Part shown: piece by piece, positions 2,340 through 30,413 of the stretch
Layout of the letters: each line of letters begins with the position of its first letter
Numbering within the stretch: the stretch's first letter is position 1
Assembly: GCA_003154775.1 (NCBI GenBank)
Contig: PMES01000027.1
Location: 1 to 64,000 of the forward strand
Direction: 5' to 3'
Length of the DNA: 64,000 nt
Source of the DNA: Acidobacteriota bacterium
GTDB lineage: Bacteria > Acidobacteriota > Terriglobia > Acidiferrales > UBA7541
Position numbers and translations under genes: made by a program
Notes under the pieces: generated by a model
What the model saw: only the letters and a program-made list of their open reading frames with translations
Database searches by the model: none
What the model was told of the DNA's origin: nothing

Positions 2340-3410
2340 TCAGAGATCGTCTGTAGAAACGTCCCTTTTGAAGACTTCACGAAGAAGGACCTTCAGGCGA
2401 AACTTGATGGCATAAGCGTCGTTGGGCGACTGCGCGTAGCGGTCAAATTCGATCAGGTCATAATTCGCCCTCGTGAGACCTTGTTCCGCCTTCTCCCGGT
2501 TCAGCTCGCGCAGTTTGTCAAAATCGGCCAGGCGTTTTCTTGTGATCGTCTGTACCCACCCTTGCTCGTGTGCCACGCGAAACAGATGATAGTAGAGCAG
2601 TACGATGCCAACCTGGCGAAGCAGGGGGTCCTTTTGTATGAACACCCCTGCCATTTGCGTAACATTGTCTTGGGCCAACTTCAAAAACGAGGGCATTTTG
2701 CCTCGCGATTGCCCTGCGAAGTTTTCAACAAACCTGTCCAAGTAAGCTTTTTTTGTATCGACGACTTTGCCGTCGTTTTCCGCGTACAAGAACTTCGTGG
2801 CAAGATCGAAGTGTCGATAACGCTTGTTCGGAAAGGGTATGTTCCCTGTGAAGAAAGACTCGCTAGCCAATTTCCGGATCGCGCCTGGCAATGGTCCACC
2901 ATAGGCGTTCCTTTTCTCGGGAGCGGTGAGAGGAGCGGACTCGTTAAGCCGTGAAAACATCTCCTCGATCATTTCCAACTCGTCCGTCTCAATACAAACA
3001 GTAGTGAGTTGGAAACTGTCGAATTGAACTTTGAGGTCGGGATATGCCTTGCCTAGCTCCGCATAGGTCATATTCCCCGCTTTCACCTTCGAGCCCTTGA
3101 AGAACTCGAAATCCTCCGCAAGAGCCATCTTTCCGTCCACGAAGGACCACATTGTTTCAAGCCGCTGCTTCCCATCAATTATCGCGTAGTCGTAGCTCTT
3201 GGCGCCCCGTTTTACGGGCTCGTGGAACTTGTGCAAATAGAGCTTTGGGACATCGAACTCGTTGAGGATAGTGTCAATTAGAAGCTGTCGCTTGTCCATC
3301 GTCCAGATATCGCTCAGCCTCTGGTATTCGGGGTCCAGCAGGATCCTATCCCGCATTCGATAAAGGCTCCAAACGGTGCAATTCCTGAGATCTGTGATTT
3401 CGAATTTCAT
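2340..3410 (-). CDS. DUF262 family protein
   Basis: A 356-residue DUF262 (ParB-N/Srx-like, GmrS-type) protein. PEYQR at 27-31 and IDGKQRL at 78-84 match the conserved nucleotide-handling motifs. FSRLNES followed by LTAPEKRNA matches the usual downstream signature. No DUF1524 HNH nuclease motif is visible at the C terminus, so unlike GmrSD it lacks its own nuclease. Known relatives occur in type IV restriction and other phage-defence loci. Its start codon overlaps the stop of the FRG gene by four bases (ATGA), implying translational coupling. It is the last gene of the minus-strand cassette. The region is visibly less GC-rich than the metabolic genes around it. Confidence 0.85.
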   Translation of the reverse strand: MKFEITDLRNCTVWSLYRMRDRILLDPEYQRLSDIWTMDKRQLLIDTILNEFDVPKLYLHKFHEPVKRGAKSYDYAIIDGKQRLETMWSFVDGKMALAEDFEFFKGSKVKAGNMTYAELGKAYPDLKVQFDSFQLTTVCIETDELEMIEEMFSRLNESAPLTAPEKRNAYGGPLPGAIRKLASESFFTGNIPFPNKRYRHFDLATKFLYAENDGKVVDTKKAYLDRFVENFAGQSRGKMPSFLKLAQDNVTQMAGVFIQKDPLLRQVGIVLLYYHLFRVAHEQGWVQTITRKRLADFDKLRELNREKAEQGLTRANYDLIEFDRYAQSPNDAYAIKFRLKVLLREVFKRDVSTDDL

Positions 3411-4153
3411 CCGAGTATTTCCCTGGTTAAGTCTGCCACTCTATCAAGTTCGGGGAATAGGGTTAGCGCCGAAATCCCGAGAACCGCGAGTTCCTTGAGA
3501 ATCTTTCCCTTGGCGGCCCCTGGAACTATCCATCTCCAGACGTGCTTGCCTTCCCCAATATCTTCGATCGGTGTGTGGAGACGGTGGTTGATTGTGAAAG
3601 TGCCGAGTTGGGCGGCCATTCGCGGAGTATTCCGCGGTCCAACGATTGCCACTGGGTACAGTTCCGCGGGATTTTCTCGAACGCGGCTTGGGAGGTAACT
3701 TTCGAGGACTTTATCTCGCCCGAAGGCCGGAATTTCGGGCTCGAATTCAAATTTGAGCTTCGCTTCTCTGTTCAGGGCAACCGGATCGAGACACCAGACG
3801 GCGCCTGAAGCGCCCAAGTGTTCTTCCTCGTGCACCGCGAAATAGAGGGCCGCGAGCGGGCTTTCGCTCCAGTCTAGCAAACGGGTGAAGGCGCGATGAT
3901 GCTGCATCAGAAAAATCCACTCCCATTCTTCCCGTGGCTGAGTGTCGAGGTGTGGTGCAGCGTTTTGCATAAACCGTTTGATCAGGGCGTTTTCGGCCTG
4001 GAGATGGGCAGCATCGCGGGCCAACGAGGGAACCAGCTTCCATACCTGTCGCGCTTGCCCACGAAACCACAAAATTCGTCTCGGCTTTGTCTGGTGCTTC
4101 AGCGCACTGAGCATTCCGGCCACTGAGCTTATTGTGCGATCTTTGTAGCGCAT
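3407..4153 (-). CDS. FRG domain-containing protein
   Basis: A 248-residue FRG-domain protein. The defining FRG triad is at 30-32 (WFRGQ), followed by LVPSLAR and then QHHRAFTRLLDWSESP with LAALYFAV around 84-107, all hallmarks of the family. Its biochemical activity is not established; FRG genes are repeatedly found in defence islands. It sits 80 bases after the Eco29kI-like nuclease and overlaps the DUF262 gene by four bases, so the two proteins are probably made together. Two CCGCGG hexamers, the predicted target of the adjacent nuclease, lie inside the gene at 3632 and 3664. Confidence 0.85.
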   Translation of the reverse strand: MRYKDRTISSVAGMLSALKHQTKPRRILWFRGQARQVWKLVPSLARDAAHLQAENALIKRFMQNAAPHLDTQPREEWEWIFLMQHHRAFTRLLDWSESPLAALYFAVHEEEHLGASGAVWCLDPVALNREAKLKFEFEPEIPAFGRDKVLESYLPSRVRENPAELYPVAIVGPRNTPRMAAQLGTFTINHRLHTPIEDIGEGKHVWRWIVPGAAKGKILKELAVLGISALTLFPELDRVADLTREILG

Positions 4154-4233
4154 TGGTACTGGAGCAAACTGTCGCTCTCACGACACTGGCCGCATCTCCT
4201 CTAGGAAATCCACTCAAAAGGCTCGGCTACTCC

Positions 4234-4908
4234 TCACTCTTCCTCGTCTTCTTTCTCTTCTTCTTCCCCGACAACGGCTTCGGCTGGTGTAAGAACTGGT
4301 ACCTTCTTCCCAGCAAAGAAATCAGCAATTAGCTCTACGATCTTTTCCTTGGACATTGGATTGGGGGGAAGTCCCTTTGCGAGACTGCGGCCCGGATGTA
4401 TCGTGTCCCACTTGGACCGTACCTGTTTCTTTCTTCCTTTTCCGGGGGTGTGGATGCCAAACCCCTCGACAAGGACATTCCATGGAGGCTGGAATCGCTC
4501 GATAAGAAGCGCTTCGCCAAGAGGTATCCAGATGTCGTCGCACACAAGGTACCGACACAAAAAATCTTCAACGTCCAGGTTTTTCGATTCCTGTATGGAT
4601 TTTGCATGCTCCCTGAGTCTTTTGAACAGCGCGTTACGCGGGTCGGCTCCGAGGCCAAACCCGCCCTTTCTTGCGCCAGGTGGCACGGCCTTACCGACGT
4701 AGATCGGTGACGTTGGATCTTTTCCCTGGTTCTTTTCAGCAATGCGCGCGTAGGGTGCAAAACCACCGACATAGTAGATGGCATAGATGCCAGCGCCGTC
4801 GAATTTCTCTTCGGAAGGCAGGAAACTTACTGGTCTTTTCAACATTGCCTCGGCGAGGCTTTTGGCCAGATTCAGTTTGTCTAGCGGATTGAAGGGGGCA
4901 TCCGGCAT
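4234..4908 (-). CDS. Eco29kI-like GIY-YIG type II restriction endonuclease
   Basis: A 224-residue GIY-YIG nuclease closely resembling R.Eco29kI, which cuts CCGCGG. GIYAIYY starts at 40 and PIYVGKAV at 68. The catalytic set described for Eco29kI (Tyr49, Tyr76, Arg104, His108, Glu142, Asn154) maps to Tyr42, Tyr70, Arg97, His101, Glu132 and Asn144. The Arg-His and Glu-Asn spacings are identical, so the enzyme looks active. The last ten residues are nearly all acidic (EEEEKEDEEE), an unusual tail. It lies 12 bases downstream of the methyltransferase gene. Target specificity is inferred from family membership only. Confidence 0.9.
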   Translation of the reverse strand: MPDAPFNPLDKLNLAKSLAEAMLKRPVSFLPSEEKFDGAGIYAIYYVGGFAPYARIAEKNQGKDPTSPIYVGKAVPPGARKGGFGLGADPRNALFKRLREHAKSIQESKNLDVEDFLCRYLVCDDIWIPLGEALLIERFQPPWNVLVEGFGIHTPGKGRKKQVRSKWDTIHPGRSLAKGLPPNPMSKEKIVELIADFFAGKKVPVLTPAEAVVGEEEEKEDEEE

Positions 4909-4920
4909 GGATGTGGTGGC

Positions 4921-6093
4921 TCAGTTGCGCGTTAGGGTAGCCTTAAGCTTTTCTGCGATGGCTTCACCGAGCAGAACTGGAACAGCGTTCCCGATTTGGC
5001 GCATGCTTTCCGTCCACGAATTCGGGAAGACGAACGAATCCGGGAAGGTTTGTAAACGGGCACTCTCCCGTATGGTGAAGTATCGAACGGATCCATCAGG
5101 TAGCGCCAGCATATTTTCGCCGCCCGGCACCCCATGCACTCCTGCCTTGAGCGTTTTGGCGGGCTCGTCAAGCGGACTTCCAGTGTGGCCGACATAACTT
5201 CTGGCTCCCTTAATTTGAAAATGAGTTAGGCCTGGCTCGTCGGGAGTGCGCTCAGGCTGAGGTTTCGGTAGATCATTGATCGCGTCCCGCACTGTTTTCC
5301 AAGGCTTGAGTGCCGGTGGAATCAGCCGGTGCTTAAGCGCCTTAATTCGTTCACGCAATTCCGCATTGAGCTCTGGCCTCCGCTTTGATGGAACTCTGTG
5401 CCTGTCCCAGTACTCGCCAGAGTAGTATTGCTCCCAGAGTAGGGAGTCTGGTGAGTGGGTGGCGGAAGGGAACGACCACTCTACACCCAGGTCGGCGCGA
5501 ATCGCGACTATAAAGAGTCGTTCACGTTTCTGGGGCACCCCGTAATCAGCCGCGTTCAGGATGCGATGAACAACCCTGTAGTAGAGGTCGTCGCGCTTTC
5601 CCTTGGTGTGGTATCGCTCCAGTCTGGAGAGATGGTCAAACCACTGTTCTTCTTTTCTTCGGCATATTCCTGGGTAGGTCAGCATTAACTCGATGTAGCT
5701 GAAGTACTTCGCGAACGATGGCCGCCGCAGTCCGCGTACGTTTTCAATGATCACGGCCTGCGGCTTCAGACGCCGAATGACATCGATTGTCTCCGGAAAG
5801 AGGTTGCGCTCATCCGAGTGACCCCTGTGTTTGCCGCCGATGGAAAAGGGCTGGCAAGGAACACCCGCAGCGAGTAACTCAATCCCTTCGGGCAGCGAAT
5901 CGAAATCGAATTGGCGCACGTCACAGTTGAAAAGCGGCCAGCTATGAACTTCTTCAACTCTGCGCCTCTTGTTTTCCTGAATCGTGAGGCATGAGTCCTC
6001 GTCAACTTCCACAAGGGCGAGATGTTTAAAACCCGCCCGGCTGATACCGAGCGCGAGTCCACCCGCGCCCGTGTACAGCTCAACGCTTTGCAT
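4921..6093 (-). CDS. DNA (cytosine-5-)-methyltransferase, partner of the Eco29kI-like enzyme
   Basis: A 390-residue C5 methyltransferase that should protect host sites from the adjacent endonuclease. Motif I (YTGAGGLALG) lies at 7-16, the catalytic PCQPFS with Cys80 at 79-84, ENVRG at 117-121, motif VIII as PQKRERLFIV, and RQIGNAVP near the C terminus. The target recognition region lies between motifs VIII and IX. Its start overlaps the end of vsr by 14 bases, and it ends 12 bases before the nuclease gene. The expected substrate is CCGCGG, by analogy with M.Eco29kI. Confidence 0.93.
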   Translation of the reverse strand: MQSVELYTGAGGLALGISRAGFKHLALVEVDEDSCLTIQENKRRRVEEVHSWPLFNCDVRQFDFDSLPEGIELLAAGVPCQPFSIGGKHRGHSDERNLFPETIDVIRRLKPQAVIIENVRGLRRPSFAKYFSYIELMLTYPGICRRKEEQWFDHLSRLERYHTKGKRDDLYYRVVHRILNAADYGVPQKRERLFIVAIRADLGVEWSFPSATHSPDSLLWEQYYSGEYWDRHRVPSKRRPELNAELRERIKALKHRLIPPALKPWKTVRDAINDLPKPQPERTPDEPGLTHFQIKGARSYVGHTGSPLDEPAKTLKAGVHGVPGGENMLALPDGSVRYFTIRESARLQTFPDSFVFPNSWTESMRQIGNAVPVLLGEAIAEKLKATLTRN

Positions 6094-27317: not shown

Positions 27318-28622
27318 ATGATTCACATCCGCAAGCTGCTGGTCTGTCTGGCCCTTCTTACTTTCTCCGTTCTAGCCTTCGCGCAGGAAAAACCCGCCAC
27401 CGTTCCCAGGAAGATCGCTATCCGCGCAGGCCGCTTGATTGACGGGAAAAGCGACACGGTTGTTACCAACGCGCTGATCCTGATCGAAGGCGACAAAATT
27501 GTGAGCGTGATGCCCGGAGGAACCGCCCCCGCGGGCGCCGAGGTGATTGATCTTTCGCGGGCTACCGTGCTCCCAGGTTTTGTTGATGCGCACACGCATG
27601 TGCTGCTCCAGGGAGACGTCACCGCGGAGGATTACGACAAGCAACTCCTCAAGCAGTCCATTCCTTATCGCGCGATTCTTGCGGCCCGCAATGCGCAAAT
27701 CGCCCTTTCCCACGGCTTCACGGTGTTGCGCGACGTGGAAACGGAAGGCGCGATGTACGCCGACGTGGACGTGAAGAACGCCATCGCCAACGGCGAAATT
27801 CCCGGCCCGCGCATGCAAGTTTCCACGCGCGCGATGGCGCCCACGGGAATGTACCCGCTGCTGGGCTATTCCTGGGAACTCAAAGTGCCCACCGGCGTGC
27901 AGTATGTCGACGGCGTCGAAGAAGCCCGCAAAGCCGTTCGCGAGCAGGTCATGTACGGCGCGGACTGGATCAAGTATTACTCCGACCATGGATACTTTTA
28001 CGGCTCCGATGGAATCCTGCACAGCCACGTGAATTTTACGGACGAAGAGGCCAAAGCGATCGTCGAGGAGACGCACCGTTTGGGACACAAAGTGGCCGCG
28101 CACGCGATTGGCAGCGACGGCATCGCGGCCGCGCTGAAGGCGGGCGTGGACAGCATAGAACATGGCGATGGCCTGACGGAACCGCTGATGGACGAAATGG
28201 TGCGCAAGGGAACGTATTGGGTGCCTACCATCGCCGTGGGAGCGTACGTGGCTCCGGGACGCGCGGGGAACTGGCCGAAAATGGTGGAATCGGAGAAGAA
28301 TGCCTTTCAATTGGCGTTGAAAAAGGGCGTGAAGATCGTCTTTGGCACGGACGTCGGCGGATTCGATTGGCGCGATTTGAATGAGGCGAAGGAGTTCGAA
28401 TACTACGTCAACTACGGCATGACGCCGATGCAGGCCATTCGCACTGCTACAACCAGTGCGGCGGAACTGCTCGGCTGGTCCGACAAAATGGGCACCATCG
28501 AAGCCGGCAAGTGGGCGGATATTGTCGCGGTCTCTGGCGATCCCCTCAAGGACATTACGGAGTTGGAGCACGTGAAATTCGTGATGAAGGGCGGCGCAGT
28601 GTTCAAGAACGACCTGCGTTGA
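27318..28622 (+). CDS. Secreted metal-dependent amidohydrolase
   Basis: A 434-residue amidohydrolase-superfamily enzyme with a signal peptide (1-22, cleavage after AFA) and therefore likely periplasmic. The metal motif VDAHTHV (His92, His94) and later HAIGSDG and FGTDVGGFD supply the other ligands. It resembles imidazolonepropionase-like or Xaa-Pro dipeptidase-type hydrolases common in Acidobacteriota. The substrate is probably a cyclic amide or peptide. ATG at 27318 follows GGGAGGAAATC. Confidence 0.88.
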   Translation: MIHIRKLLVCLALLTFSVLAFAQEKPATVPRKIAIRAGRLIDGKSDTVVTNALILIEGDKIVSVMPGGTAPAGAEVIDLSRATVLPGFVDAHTHVLLQGDVTAEDYDKQLLKQSIPYRAILAARNAQIALSHGFTVLRDVETEGAMYADVDVKNAIANGEIPGPRMQVSTRAMAPTGMYPLLGYSWELKVPTGVQYVDGVEEARKAVREQVMYGADWIKYYSDHGYFYGSDGILHSHVNFTDEEAKAIVEETHRLGHKVAAHAIGSDGIAAALKAGVDSIEHGDGLTEPLMDEMVRKGTYWVPTIAVGAYVAPGRAGNWPKMVESEKNAFQLALKKGVKIVFGTDVGGFDWRDLNEAKEFEYYVNYGMTPMQAIRTATTSAAELLGWSDKMGTIEAGKWADIVAVSGDPLKDITELEHVKFVMKGGAVFKNDLR

Positions 28623-28689
28623 GTGCTACAAGAAAAATGCGGCGGCGCTATTGACGGCAATCCCTTGTCCGCCTGGCTGACCTGAGTCT

Positions 28690-29106
28690 TTACCGACGCC
28701 TCCATAGCCGGAGGAGCTTTTTACAAGCAATGTCAAAGTCCTTCCGGAAATCGATAAACTCGAAATCAGCGAGTGTCCACGAAAGCAGTTCGTGCTCGCA
28801 GTCACGAAACAGCACCGGGATGATTCTTCGCCTATAACGCTTCTGTCGAAGCGCGTAGAGCAACTCTCGTTTGACCCACACAGATTTCACAGCGTTTGGA
28901 GTGAGTATCAGCAGAAACCAGTCGCAGCGATTCAGTGCACGGCCGATTTCGTCATGCCACTCCATCGCGCCGGGGATGTGAGTCTCGCTGAACCAATAAC
29001 GGATTTTGTTTTGCTTGAAAACCTCCAGAAGTCGCTTGACGAAATTTCGATCCCGGCTGGCGTGCGACACGAAAACTTCGAGGTCATGCTTGGAAGGCGG
29101 GCGCAC
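28690..29106 (-). CDS. TIR domain protein (second of a pair)
   Basis: A 138-residue stand-alone TIR domain. VFVSHASRDR is at 11-20, WFSETHIPG at 38-46 and LILTPNAVKS near 67-76. The position of the catalytic NADase glutamate is filled by Glu81 (VKRELLYAL). Bacterial TIR domains commonly cleave NAD or make cyclic ADP-ribose signals in phage defence. No fused sensor domain is present. GTG at 29106 starts five bases after the stop of the other TIR gene, so the two are co-translated. Base composition is less GC-rich than in neighbouring genes. Confidence 0.88.
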   Translation of the reverse strand: MRPPSKHDLEVFVSHASRDRNFVKRLLEVFKQNKIRYWFSETHIPGAMEWHDEIGRALNRCDWFLLILTPNAVKSVWVKRELLYALRQKRYRRRIIPVLFRDCEHELLSWTLADFEFIDFRKDFDIACKKLLRLWRRR

Positions 29107-29111
29107 TTAGG

Positions 29112-29552
29112 CTATGCCACCTGTTTCAATCTCTCCGCAATCATTGTTCCAATTCGGCCCGCGTCTTTCTTTGCTTCGTATATTTCAAATTTCTTCAAAA
29201 TCCTTCGGCCCGCGGGTATCTTTGCTTCGTATATTTCAAACTCTTTCAAGATCCAGGGAATTTGCTTGGTTGGACGCACCAGGACGGGGAATACCCTGTC
29301 CCGAAAATTCTCATTACCCAGAGCGTACTCCAGCTCGCTATTGAGCAGCTCCGATTTTACGGATTCGGGCGAGAGCAAAACTACTAGTGCGTGCGAGTCT
29401 TCCAAAGCCTTCCCAATCGTCAGCCAAGGATTCTCGCCGGGCAGCAACTCGTCGGCAGACATCCAAACGCGTAACCCCCGGCTGGTAATTTCCTTCGCCA
29501 GTTGAAGTGCAAACTCTCGATCAGCCAGACTGTAGCTAAAAAATACCTGCAT
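29112..29552 (-). CDS. TIR domain protein (first of a pair)
   Basis: A 146-residue TIR protein: QVFFSYSLADREF at 2-14, VWMSADELLPGE at 29-40, VVLLSPESVKS at 57-67, and a glutamate (Glu73, NSELEYAL) at the catalytic site. Residues 101-117 and 118-134 are a tandem duplication of a 17-residue unit beginning ILK(E/K)FEIYEAK, encoded by a 51-bp repeat. ATG at 29552 has AAGGAT upstream. It is the first gene of a two-TIR operon located between an amidohydrolase and an SDR gene. Confidence 0.88.
   Translation of the reverse strand: MQVFFSYSLADREFALQLAKEITSRGLRVWMSADELLPGENPWLTIGKALEDSHALVVLLSPESVKSELLNSELEYALGNENFRDRVFPVLVRPTKQIPWILKEFEIYEAKIPAGRRILKKFEIYEAKKDAGRIGTMIAERLKQVA
29155..29256 (-). repeat. 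51-bp tandem duplication inside a TIR gene
   Basis: Units 29155-29205 and 29206-29256 share most bases, including TTTGCTTCGTATATTTCAAA. The repeat preserves the reading frame. It duplicates the helix following the last TIR strand. Confidence 0.9.
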
Positions 29553-29630
29553 ATATCATCCTTAATCCACTATTGTAACACCCCTGCCGGTAACCGGACC
29601 TCTATTCAGCGAGTACCGCCCGTGGCCGCT

Positions 29631-30413
29631 TTAGAAAAAGACGGCGCCGCCATCCACGTTGAGCGACTGGCCGACGATGGCGCTGGACATGTCCGAGCAA
29701 AGGAATAGCGCGGCTTGAGCAATTTCCATCGCGGTCTGGCCGCGGCCCTGCAGCAGCGAACTCAAGAAGCCCTTGAGTTGCTCTTCCGGGCTGACACCAA
29801 GTTTCTTCGCCAACGTATTCCCCAATTCCTTGGACATCACGGTTTCCGTCACCGGACCGGGGCAGATGGCATTCACGCGCACGCCCTGACGCGAGGCTTC
29901 GGCGGCCATCACGCGCGTCAAGCCGAGGATACCCGCTTTTGCGGCCGCGTATGCCGATCCCCAGCCATAAGCGGCTTTTGCCGAAATGCTGGAAATATGC
30001 AGGATGACGCCCGATTTGCGAGCGTACATTTCCGGTAGAACGAGTTTGCTCAGCAAGAACGCGGCGCGCAGGTGCACAGCAATCACTTTGTCGAACTCCT
30101 CCAAAGGATAATCTTCCACGGGAACCACGGGACCGTAGTGGCCAGCGTTGTTCACAAGAATGTCCACGCGGCCGAACTTCGCGCGCCCCGCGGCCACGAG
30201 TTCCTCCGCATCGGCGGCCCGCGTCAGATCGGCGATGACAAAAGCCGCTTTGCCTCCCGCGGCAGTGATTTCTTTCGCCGTGGCAGCGAGTTCGGCCTCC
30301 GTGCGCGCGGTCAAAAAAACCGAAGCGCCCTCTCTTGCAAAGAGTTGCGCGATCGCGCGCCCGATGCCGCGGCCTGATCCTGTGATTAAAGCCACTTTGT
30401 TTTCGAGAAGCAT
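29631..30413 (-). CDS. SDR family oxidoreductase (FabG-like)
   Basis: A 260-residue short-chain dehydrogenase. ITGSGRGIGRAI binds NAD(P), NNAG is present, and the catalytic serine, tyrosine and lysine lie in ISSISAKAAYGWGSAYAAAKAG. The substrate is unknown; 3-oxoacyl reductase or sugar/alcohol dehydrogenase activity is plausible. It is a single gene, with its end 79 bases after the TIR operon start. Confidence 0.88.
   Translation of the reverse strand: MLLENKVALITGSGRGIGRAIAQLFAREGASVFLTARTEAELAATAKEITAAGGKAAFVIADLTRAADAEELVAAGRAKFGRVDILVNNAGHYGPVVPVEDYPLEEFDKVIAVHLRAAFLLSKLVLPEMYARKSGVILHISSISAKAAYGWGSAYAAAKAGILGLTRVMAAEASRQGVRVNAICPGPVTETVMSKELGNTLAKKLGVSPEEQLKGFLSSLLQGRGQTAMEIAQAALFLCSDMSSAIVGQSLNVDGGAVFF

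Follow-up and report, generated by a model that had tools for sequence, protein, structure and literature searches.

In the bacterial TIR systems described so far, a TIR domain is paired with a separate sensor or effector domain. The locus considered here, which lies in a 64,000-nucleotide stretch of an acidobacterial contig (the window, in what follows), raises the question of whether two bare TIR proteins could make up such a system between them. A preliminary description of this DNA, made from its letters alone, had pointed to two different TIR domains encoded five bases apart, each with a glutamate at the NADase position, and had suggested that the partner of each TIR may be the other one. 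We analyzed the locus itself, its counterparts across bacterial genomes, its neighbouring genes and the active sites of its two products.

Two TIR genes in a segment absent from three relatives

Both genes were found on the reverse strand, as previously described. TIR1, the first gene of the pair (29112..29552), begins with ATG and encodes 146 amino acids with a single TIR domain, and TIR2, the second gene (28690..29106), begins with GTG and encodes 138 amino acids, likewise with a single TIR domain. Against the Pfam family TIR_2 (PF13676), which has a curated cut-off of 28 bits, TIR2 scored 95.9 bits (3e-27) and TIR1 75.8 bits (5e-21); these scores and the TIR-fold models place both proteins in the TIR superfamily. 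The TIR_2 domain fills both proteins and leaves no room for another, which bears out the earlier statement that no sensor or effector domain is fused to either. Confident AlphaFold2 models of the two proteins (pLDDT 88.6 and 92.5) both resembled solved TIR domains in Foldseek searches, in which the top match of TIR1 was the MyD88 TIR filament; the Foldseek scores are moderate, and their rank order by itself carries little weight.

The TIR1 stop codon and the TIR2 GTG are separated by five bases, and an AGGTGG motif precedes this GTG within the 3' end of TIR1. The short gap and the position of the motif make translational coupling of TIR1 and TIR2 likely. TIR1 of the window also contains an in-frame tandem duplication of 51 bp (29153..29254, reverse strand), the copies of which are 86% identical. 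It adds 17 residues before and into the predicted C-terminal helix and is missing from the other eight TIR1 sequences aligned. The BB loop of TIR1 reads LPGDNW.

On one side, and outside the module, the pair is flanked by a gene for an amidohydrolase family protein (27318..28622, forward strand; PF01979), whose synteny is kept where the TIR pair is lacking. On the other side, upstream of TIR1 and on the same strand, lies a short-chain dehydrogenase gene (29631..30413, reverse strand; PF00106), with a terminator-like hairpin at its end (29655-29639). In three relatives (G034, G021 and G030), one of which (G034) is approximately 90-94% identical to the window at the nucleotide level, these two genes stand tail to tail with a short spacer between them. 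In the window they are about 980 bp apart, and this interval consists almost solely of the two TIR genes. The insert that the three relatives lack spans 28652..29630 (approximately 0.98 kb, with no strand assigned); its ends are ambiguous by approximately 20 bp of similar sequence at the junction, where no obvious mobile element was seen. The GC content of the insert is 51% versus 59% for the window, and the GC3 values of the two TIR genes are 57% and 63% versus 70-81% for their neighbours. The pair is sporadic in its presence, occurring in 6 of 89 genomes in the family and 8 of 299 in the class, and remnants of TIR2 can be found in G011 and G023. These comparisons indicate that the TIR pair is gained and lost as a unit.

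A similar setting was seen in another genus (G087, locus L058, 7235-9204), where a short-chain dehydrogenase gene once more precedes the pair, in the same order and on the same strand, with a product 64% identical to that of the window. Nearer relatives than G087 are without the pair at the short-chain dehydrogenase site. This arrangement could reflect either an old insertion with subsequent losses or repeated targeting.

Conservation of the pair across bacteria

Scanning the genomes of 84,980 species with a TIR2 alignment returned 80 loci. Profile searches placed TIR1 directly upstream of TIR2, on the same strand and in the same order, at 79 of 79 testable loci; the eightieth (L099) ends at a contig edge and is untestable for TIR1. 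The genes are usually tens of bases apart or overlap, several loci showing a 4-base overlap. Judging by submitter titles, at least 14 phyla carry TIR1-TIR2 loci (Acidobacteriota, Planctomycetota, Pseudomonadota, Verrucomicrobiota, Cyanobacteriota, Myxococcota, Gemmatimonadota, Latescibacterota, Nitrospirota, Chloroflexota, Calditrichota, Bacteroidota, Armatimonadota and Binatota). A cultured carrier of the pair is Nostoc favosum CHAB5714.

Searches that began with TIR1 gave a closely similar picture. A close TIR1 homologue occurs in 6 of the 89 same-family genomes, each time followed directly, on the same strand, by a TIR2 homologue. Samples drawn from the same family, from the phylum, from cyanobacteria and from planctomycetes gave 15 genomes with TIR1, of which 14 have it paired with TIR2. 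A further 28 genomes were reached through the loci, and in these TIR2 adjoins every match to the TIR1 family. A match had to reach at least 120 bits with alignment A3; the remaining TIRs of these genomes scored about 108 bits or less. The exception, G342, has a lone TIR1 (L064, 7976-8377) in which alanine occupies the catalytic position; the 16 kb examined there contain no TIR2. Searched from either gene, the homologues are not single and unlinked, and the proposal that the partner of each TIR is the other TIR passes this test, which the preliminary description had set for it.

Both proteins belong to TIR_2 and share approximately 34% identity, as might be seen if they were chance neighbours or if one TIR gene had recently been duplicated locally, explanations to which we attach next to no probability. 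Chance is excluded by an adjacency that recurs in one fixed order at 79 of 79 loci. A recent duplication is ruled out by that same order and by the separate clades of TIR1 and TIR2, each of which spans phyla. In a joint tree, which was built quickly and resolves few forks, TIR1 and TIR2 each come out as a clade of their own or close to it (one change for TIR2, two for TIR1). TIR2 is the better conserved of the two, with a mean column identity of 56% versus 44% for TIR1. The mirror-tree distance correlation between them (r = 0.63) is explained by co-inheritance alone, and we therefore do not use it as evidence of contact between TIR1 and TIR2.

No natural fusion of TIR1 and TIR2 was found among the 80 loci. 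Cyanobacterial tandem-TIR proteins were considered as fusions of the pair and rejected, since none of their domains scored above 77 bits. At L153, L154 and L165, cyanobacteria encode proteins that each have three TIR domains in tandem, and in one of them the domains are followed by WD40-like repeats. At L134 (3183-4607), TIR1 has about 330 extra N-terminal residues, which match no other Pfam family, and lies directly ahead of TIR2; this extension is possibly a fused sensor. Two small tandem TIR ORFs (approximately 149 amino acids) at G504:C219:6465-7146 and two to three small TIR ORFs in a row at L176 (G889) belong to neither TIR1 nor TIR2, and such tandem ORFs suggest that operons with several TIR genes may be more widespread.

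Neighbouring genes and active sites

Clustering of neighbouring proteins at the 80 loci revealed no third gene that recurs beside the pair beyond lineage synteny. The nearest neighbours include NrdR, tRNA synthetases, short-chain dehydrogenases, CdsA/UppS and similar genes. Immediate neighbours are mostly housekeeping genes, with few defence genes and no defence enrichment, and the pair does not appear to sit in defence islands. The preliminary description had named ThsA, SAVED and STING among the usual partners of single TIRs; in the family at large, no gene for any of these is conserved beside the pair. ThsA was found at 0 of 79 loci, and SAVED, STING, TM or APAZ domains are neither fused in either protein nor recurrent beside the pair. 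When ThsA was sought in trans, the STALD domain of the type I protein (PF18185) was found in 0 of 24 pair-bearing genomes. The same search detected STALD in 2 of 194 cyanobacteria that served as a comparison sample, while the built-in control genomes were positive in neither search; STALD is therefore findable in this way, and its absence from the 24 genomes is suggestive rather than proven.

A gene for an 8xMP octameric membrane protein occurs near the pair at three loci only, L114 (3946-4443), L115 (3514-4449) and L133 (5482-6036), where it is plausibly an add-on effector. We found no copy of the pair in phage records or viral contigs. Plasmids yielded no true family member and two weak matches (27-37% identity), the better of which is a 268-amino-acid TIR protein of another kind. 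The window also contains type II R-M genes (3410-6093, reverse strand), approximately 23 kb from the TIR pair; the segment 4924-6093 encodes a C5-cytosine methyltransferase, and candidate restriction and PDC-S15-like ORFs adjoin it.

A glutamate at the NADase position had been ascribed to each protein, which implied a symmetrical pair with two such residues. In the window both are present, E73 in TIR1 (codon 29334-29336, reverse strand) and E81 in TIR2 (codon 28864-28866, reverse strand), but conservation across the families is confined to TIR2, and the comparison does not support the implied symmetry. E81 forms an AbTir-like W-x-x-x-E site with W77 (codon 28876-28878, reverse strand); in the TIR2 family W77 is conserved at 100%, and E81 is present in every complete copy. 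At the position of E73, the TIR1 proteins of the 80 pairs have E in 66, D in 8, N in 5 and A in 1. The residue is thus acidic in 74 of 80, and in all 14 pairs with a non-Glu TIR1 the glutamate of the partner TIR2 is intact. There is no W four residues ahead of E73 in the TIR1 of the window, and only a third of the TIR1 family has one there; the W-x-x-x-E helix that AbTir, PdTIR and BtTir have in common can be seen in TIR2 and not in TIR1. In profile searches, the best matches of TIR2 were these same bacterial NADase TIRs, while the top matches of TIR1 included TIR-STING and PdTIR and also MyD88 and Toll-like receptors.

The conserved glutamate that characterizes TIR NADases is therefore a feature of the TIR2 family and not of the TIR1 family, in which 14 of 80 members are without it. 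As far as the sequences go, TIR1 and TIR2 are not equivalent, and only the active site of TIR2 is constrained. That the glutamate is lost from TIR1 in these pairs and kept in TIR2 argues for TIR2 as the probable enzyme and TIR1 as its partner; TIR2 is predicted to process NAD+, and TIR1 to act as a sensor or scaffold.

Frames interrupted by stops or frameshifts are likewise unevenly distributed, affecting TIR2 at 8 of 77 loci and TIR1 at 0 of 78 when open frames were taken from stop to stop. A count limited by start codons gave 9 for TIR2 versus 0 for TIR1 (Fisher p = 0.0014). Errors of assembly should fall on both genes alike and do not account for breakage that is confined to TIR2. The count for TIR2 is also conservative, because the loci were found via TIR2 motifs and some genes that had been lost wholly will have been missed. 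One-sided breakage of this kind is as expected if TIR2 is costly to its carrier, for example as a toxic enzyme.

Possible function and relation to known TIR systems

The explanation that we favour, and to which we would give an even chance, is an asymmetric two-TIR immune module in which the TIR1-TIR2 assembly itself depletes NAD+ as its simplest output. It builds on features that can be read from the sequences and the models made from them, namely the TIR fold, a pairing that is obligate and fixed in order, the lack of any third gene, an active site that only TIR2 conserves, the insertion and the selective breakage of TIR2. From these we infer a physical complex of the two proteins, NAD+ chemistry, a trigger and a role in phage defence. 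TIR2 would cleave NAD+ or make an ADP-ribose-type product from it. TIR1, which is largely non-catalytic, would sense the trigger and/or complete the active assembly, and could switch on TIR2 much as staphylococcal ThsB1 recruits and activates ThsB2. Because no effector gene is linked to the pair, direct depletion of NAD+ by the assembly is the simplest output, which would bring the infected cell to a stop as an abortive-infection defence. The further claim that the pair is a complete immune system of two bare TIRs, with sensor, switch and NAD+-consuming effector all in the heteromer, is a tentative one that may well prove wrong. The trigger of an NAD+-depleting system is normally recognised by something larger than a bare TIR of 135 amino acids, and the housekeeping neighbourhood, the lack of phage or viral copies and of plasmid family members, and the lone TIR1 in G342 also speak against the favoured explanation.

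Other explanations share part of this evidence. TIR1 and TIR2 could be a signalling pair that makes a cyclic or modified ADP-ribose messenger for an unlinked effector (ThsA-like, membrane or caspase-like), which we regard as possible and distinctly less probable than the depleting module. ThsB1/ThsB2, the nearest two-TIR pair to have been characterised, synthesizes gcADPR (PMC12578639), and the 8xMP genes near the pair at L114, L115 and L133 are in keeping with such a role; however, no effector is conserved beside the pair at 79 loci, and ThsA of the STALD type was found in 0 of 24 pair genomes versus 2 of 194 cyanobacteria in a genome-wide search confined to that domain. A toxin-antitoxin system, in which TIR2 would be an NAD+-depleting toxin and TIR1, encoded first, an antitoxin that keeps TIR2 inactive through TIR-TIR contact, would account for two small coupled genes, for their sporadic presence, for a catalytic residue that TIR1 can lose and for the breakage of TIR2 (8/77) and never of TIR1, as for a toxin. 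We nonetheless consider it unlikely, since plasmids and phages are not enriched in the pair, neither protein has a transcriptional regulator domain, and a TIR1 site that is acidic in 74 of 80 pairs goes beyond what a pure inhibitor needs. Less probable again, to the point of being doubtful on its face, is a non-enzymatic scaffold in which TIR1 and TIR2 co-assemble as a signalling platform like MyD88/MAL, with no NAD+ chemistry. The MyD88 filament is the best structural match of TIR1, and its profile matches MyD88 and TLRs, but the full W-x-x-x-E site of TIR2 is kept across at least 14 phyla, TIR2 matches NADase TIRs best, and no downstream partner gene is conserved.

As an asymmetric module, the pair would belong among the TIR-based immune modules as a variant without ThsA. 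Against the ThsB models of PADLOC, TIR2 gave a partial match (best 35.6 bits over residues 9-97) and TIR1 a weak one, and the Thoeris and retron-TIR models of NCBIfam scored far under their cut-offs (24.9 versus 220 bits and 40.9 versus 600 bits). By these profiles, none of the models in PADLOC or NCBIfam fits the pair at family level, and with neither a linked ThsA nor family-level similarity to ThsB it falls outside Thoeris. Staphylococcal type I Thoeris (ThsA-ThsB1-ThsB2) resembles it in having two different TIR proteins in one operon. In that system, ThsB1 binds a phage capsid protein and recruits ThsB2, and mutation of the glutamate in ThsB2, and not in ThsB1, abolishes immunity (PMC12578639); the catalytic glutamate is required only in ThsB2 there and is kept only in TIR2 here. 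ThsB1 and ThsB2 (41.8 kDa and 23.4 kDa with their tags; PMC12578639) are larger than TIR1 and TIR2, and staphylococcal Thoeris includes a STALD-domain ThsA, which lies beside none of the 79 pairs and was undetected in the 24 genomes searched.

The fold and the W-x-x-x-E site of TIR2 are shared with the stand-alone NADase TIRs AbTir, PdTIR and BtTir, which are its best matches by profile. None of these is known to occur as a fixed two-TIR pair; they stand alone, whereas here a second, catalytically relaxed TIR is obligate. SpbK, TIR-SAVED, TIR-STING, TIR-APAZ (SPARTA) and retron-TIR also represent bacterial defence by TIR NADases, and several of them show partial profile or fold similarity to the pair, but in each a sensor domain is fused or linked to the TIR, and none consists of two bare TIRs. 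We found no system of two bare TIR proteins in the open-licence literature, where phrase searching can miss papers.

The assembly of different TIRs, one of them non-enzymatic, is familiar from the plant heterodimer RPS4/RRS1 and from MyD88/MAL, and the likeness to the latter includes MyD88 as the best fold match of TIR1. These are larger plant or animal receptors or adaptors that have other domains, whereas the proteins described here are bare bacterial TIRs. If the pair is a complete system of two bare TIRs, no TIR immune system so far would be smaller, and bacteria would have a counterpart of paired TIR signalling. With approximately 285 residues in the present case, the pair could provide a compact model for how one TIR licenses catalysis by another, a question that is common to ThsB1/B2 of Thoeris, to RRS1/RPS4 of plants and to the MyD88/SARM1-type assemblies of animals.
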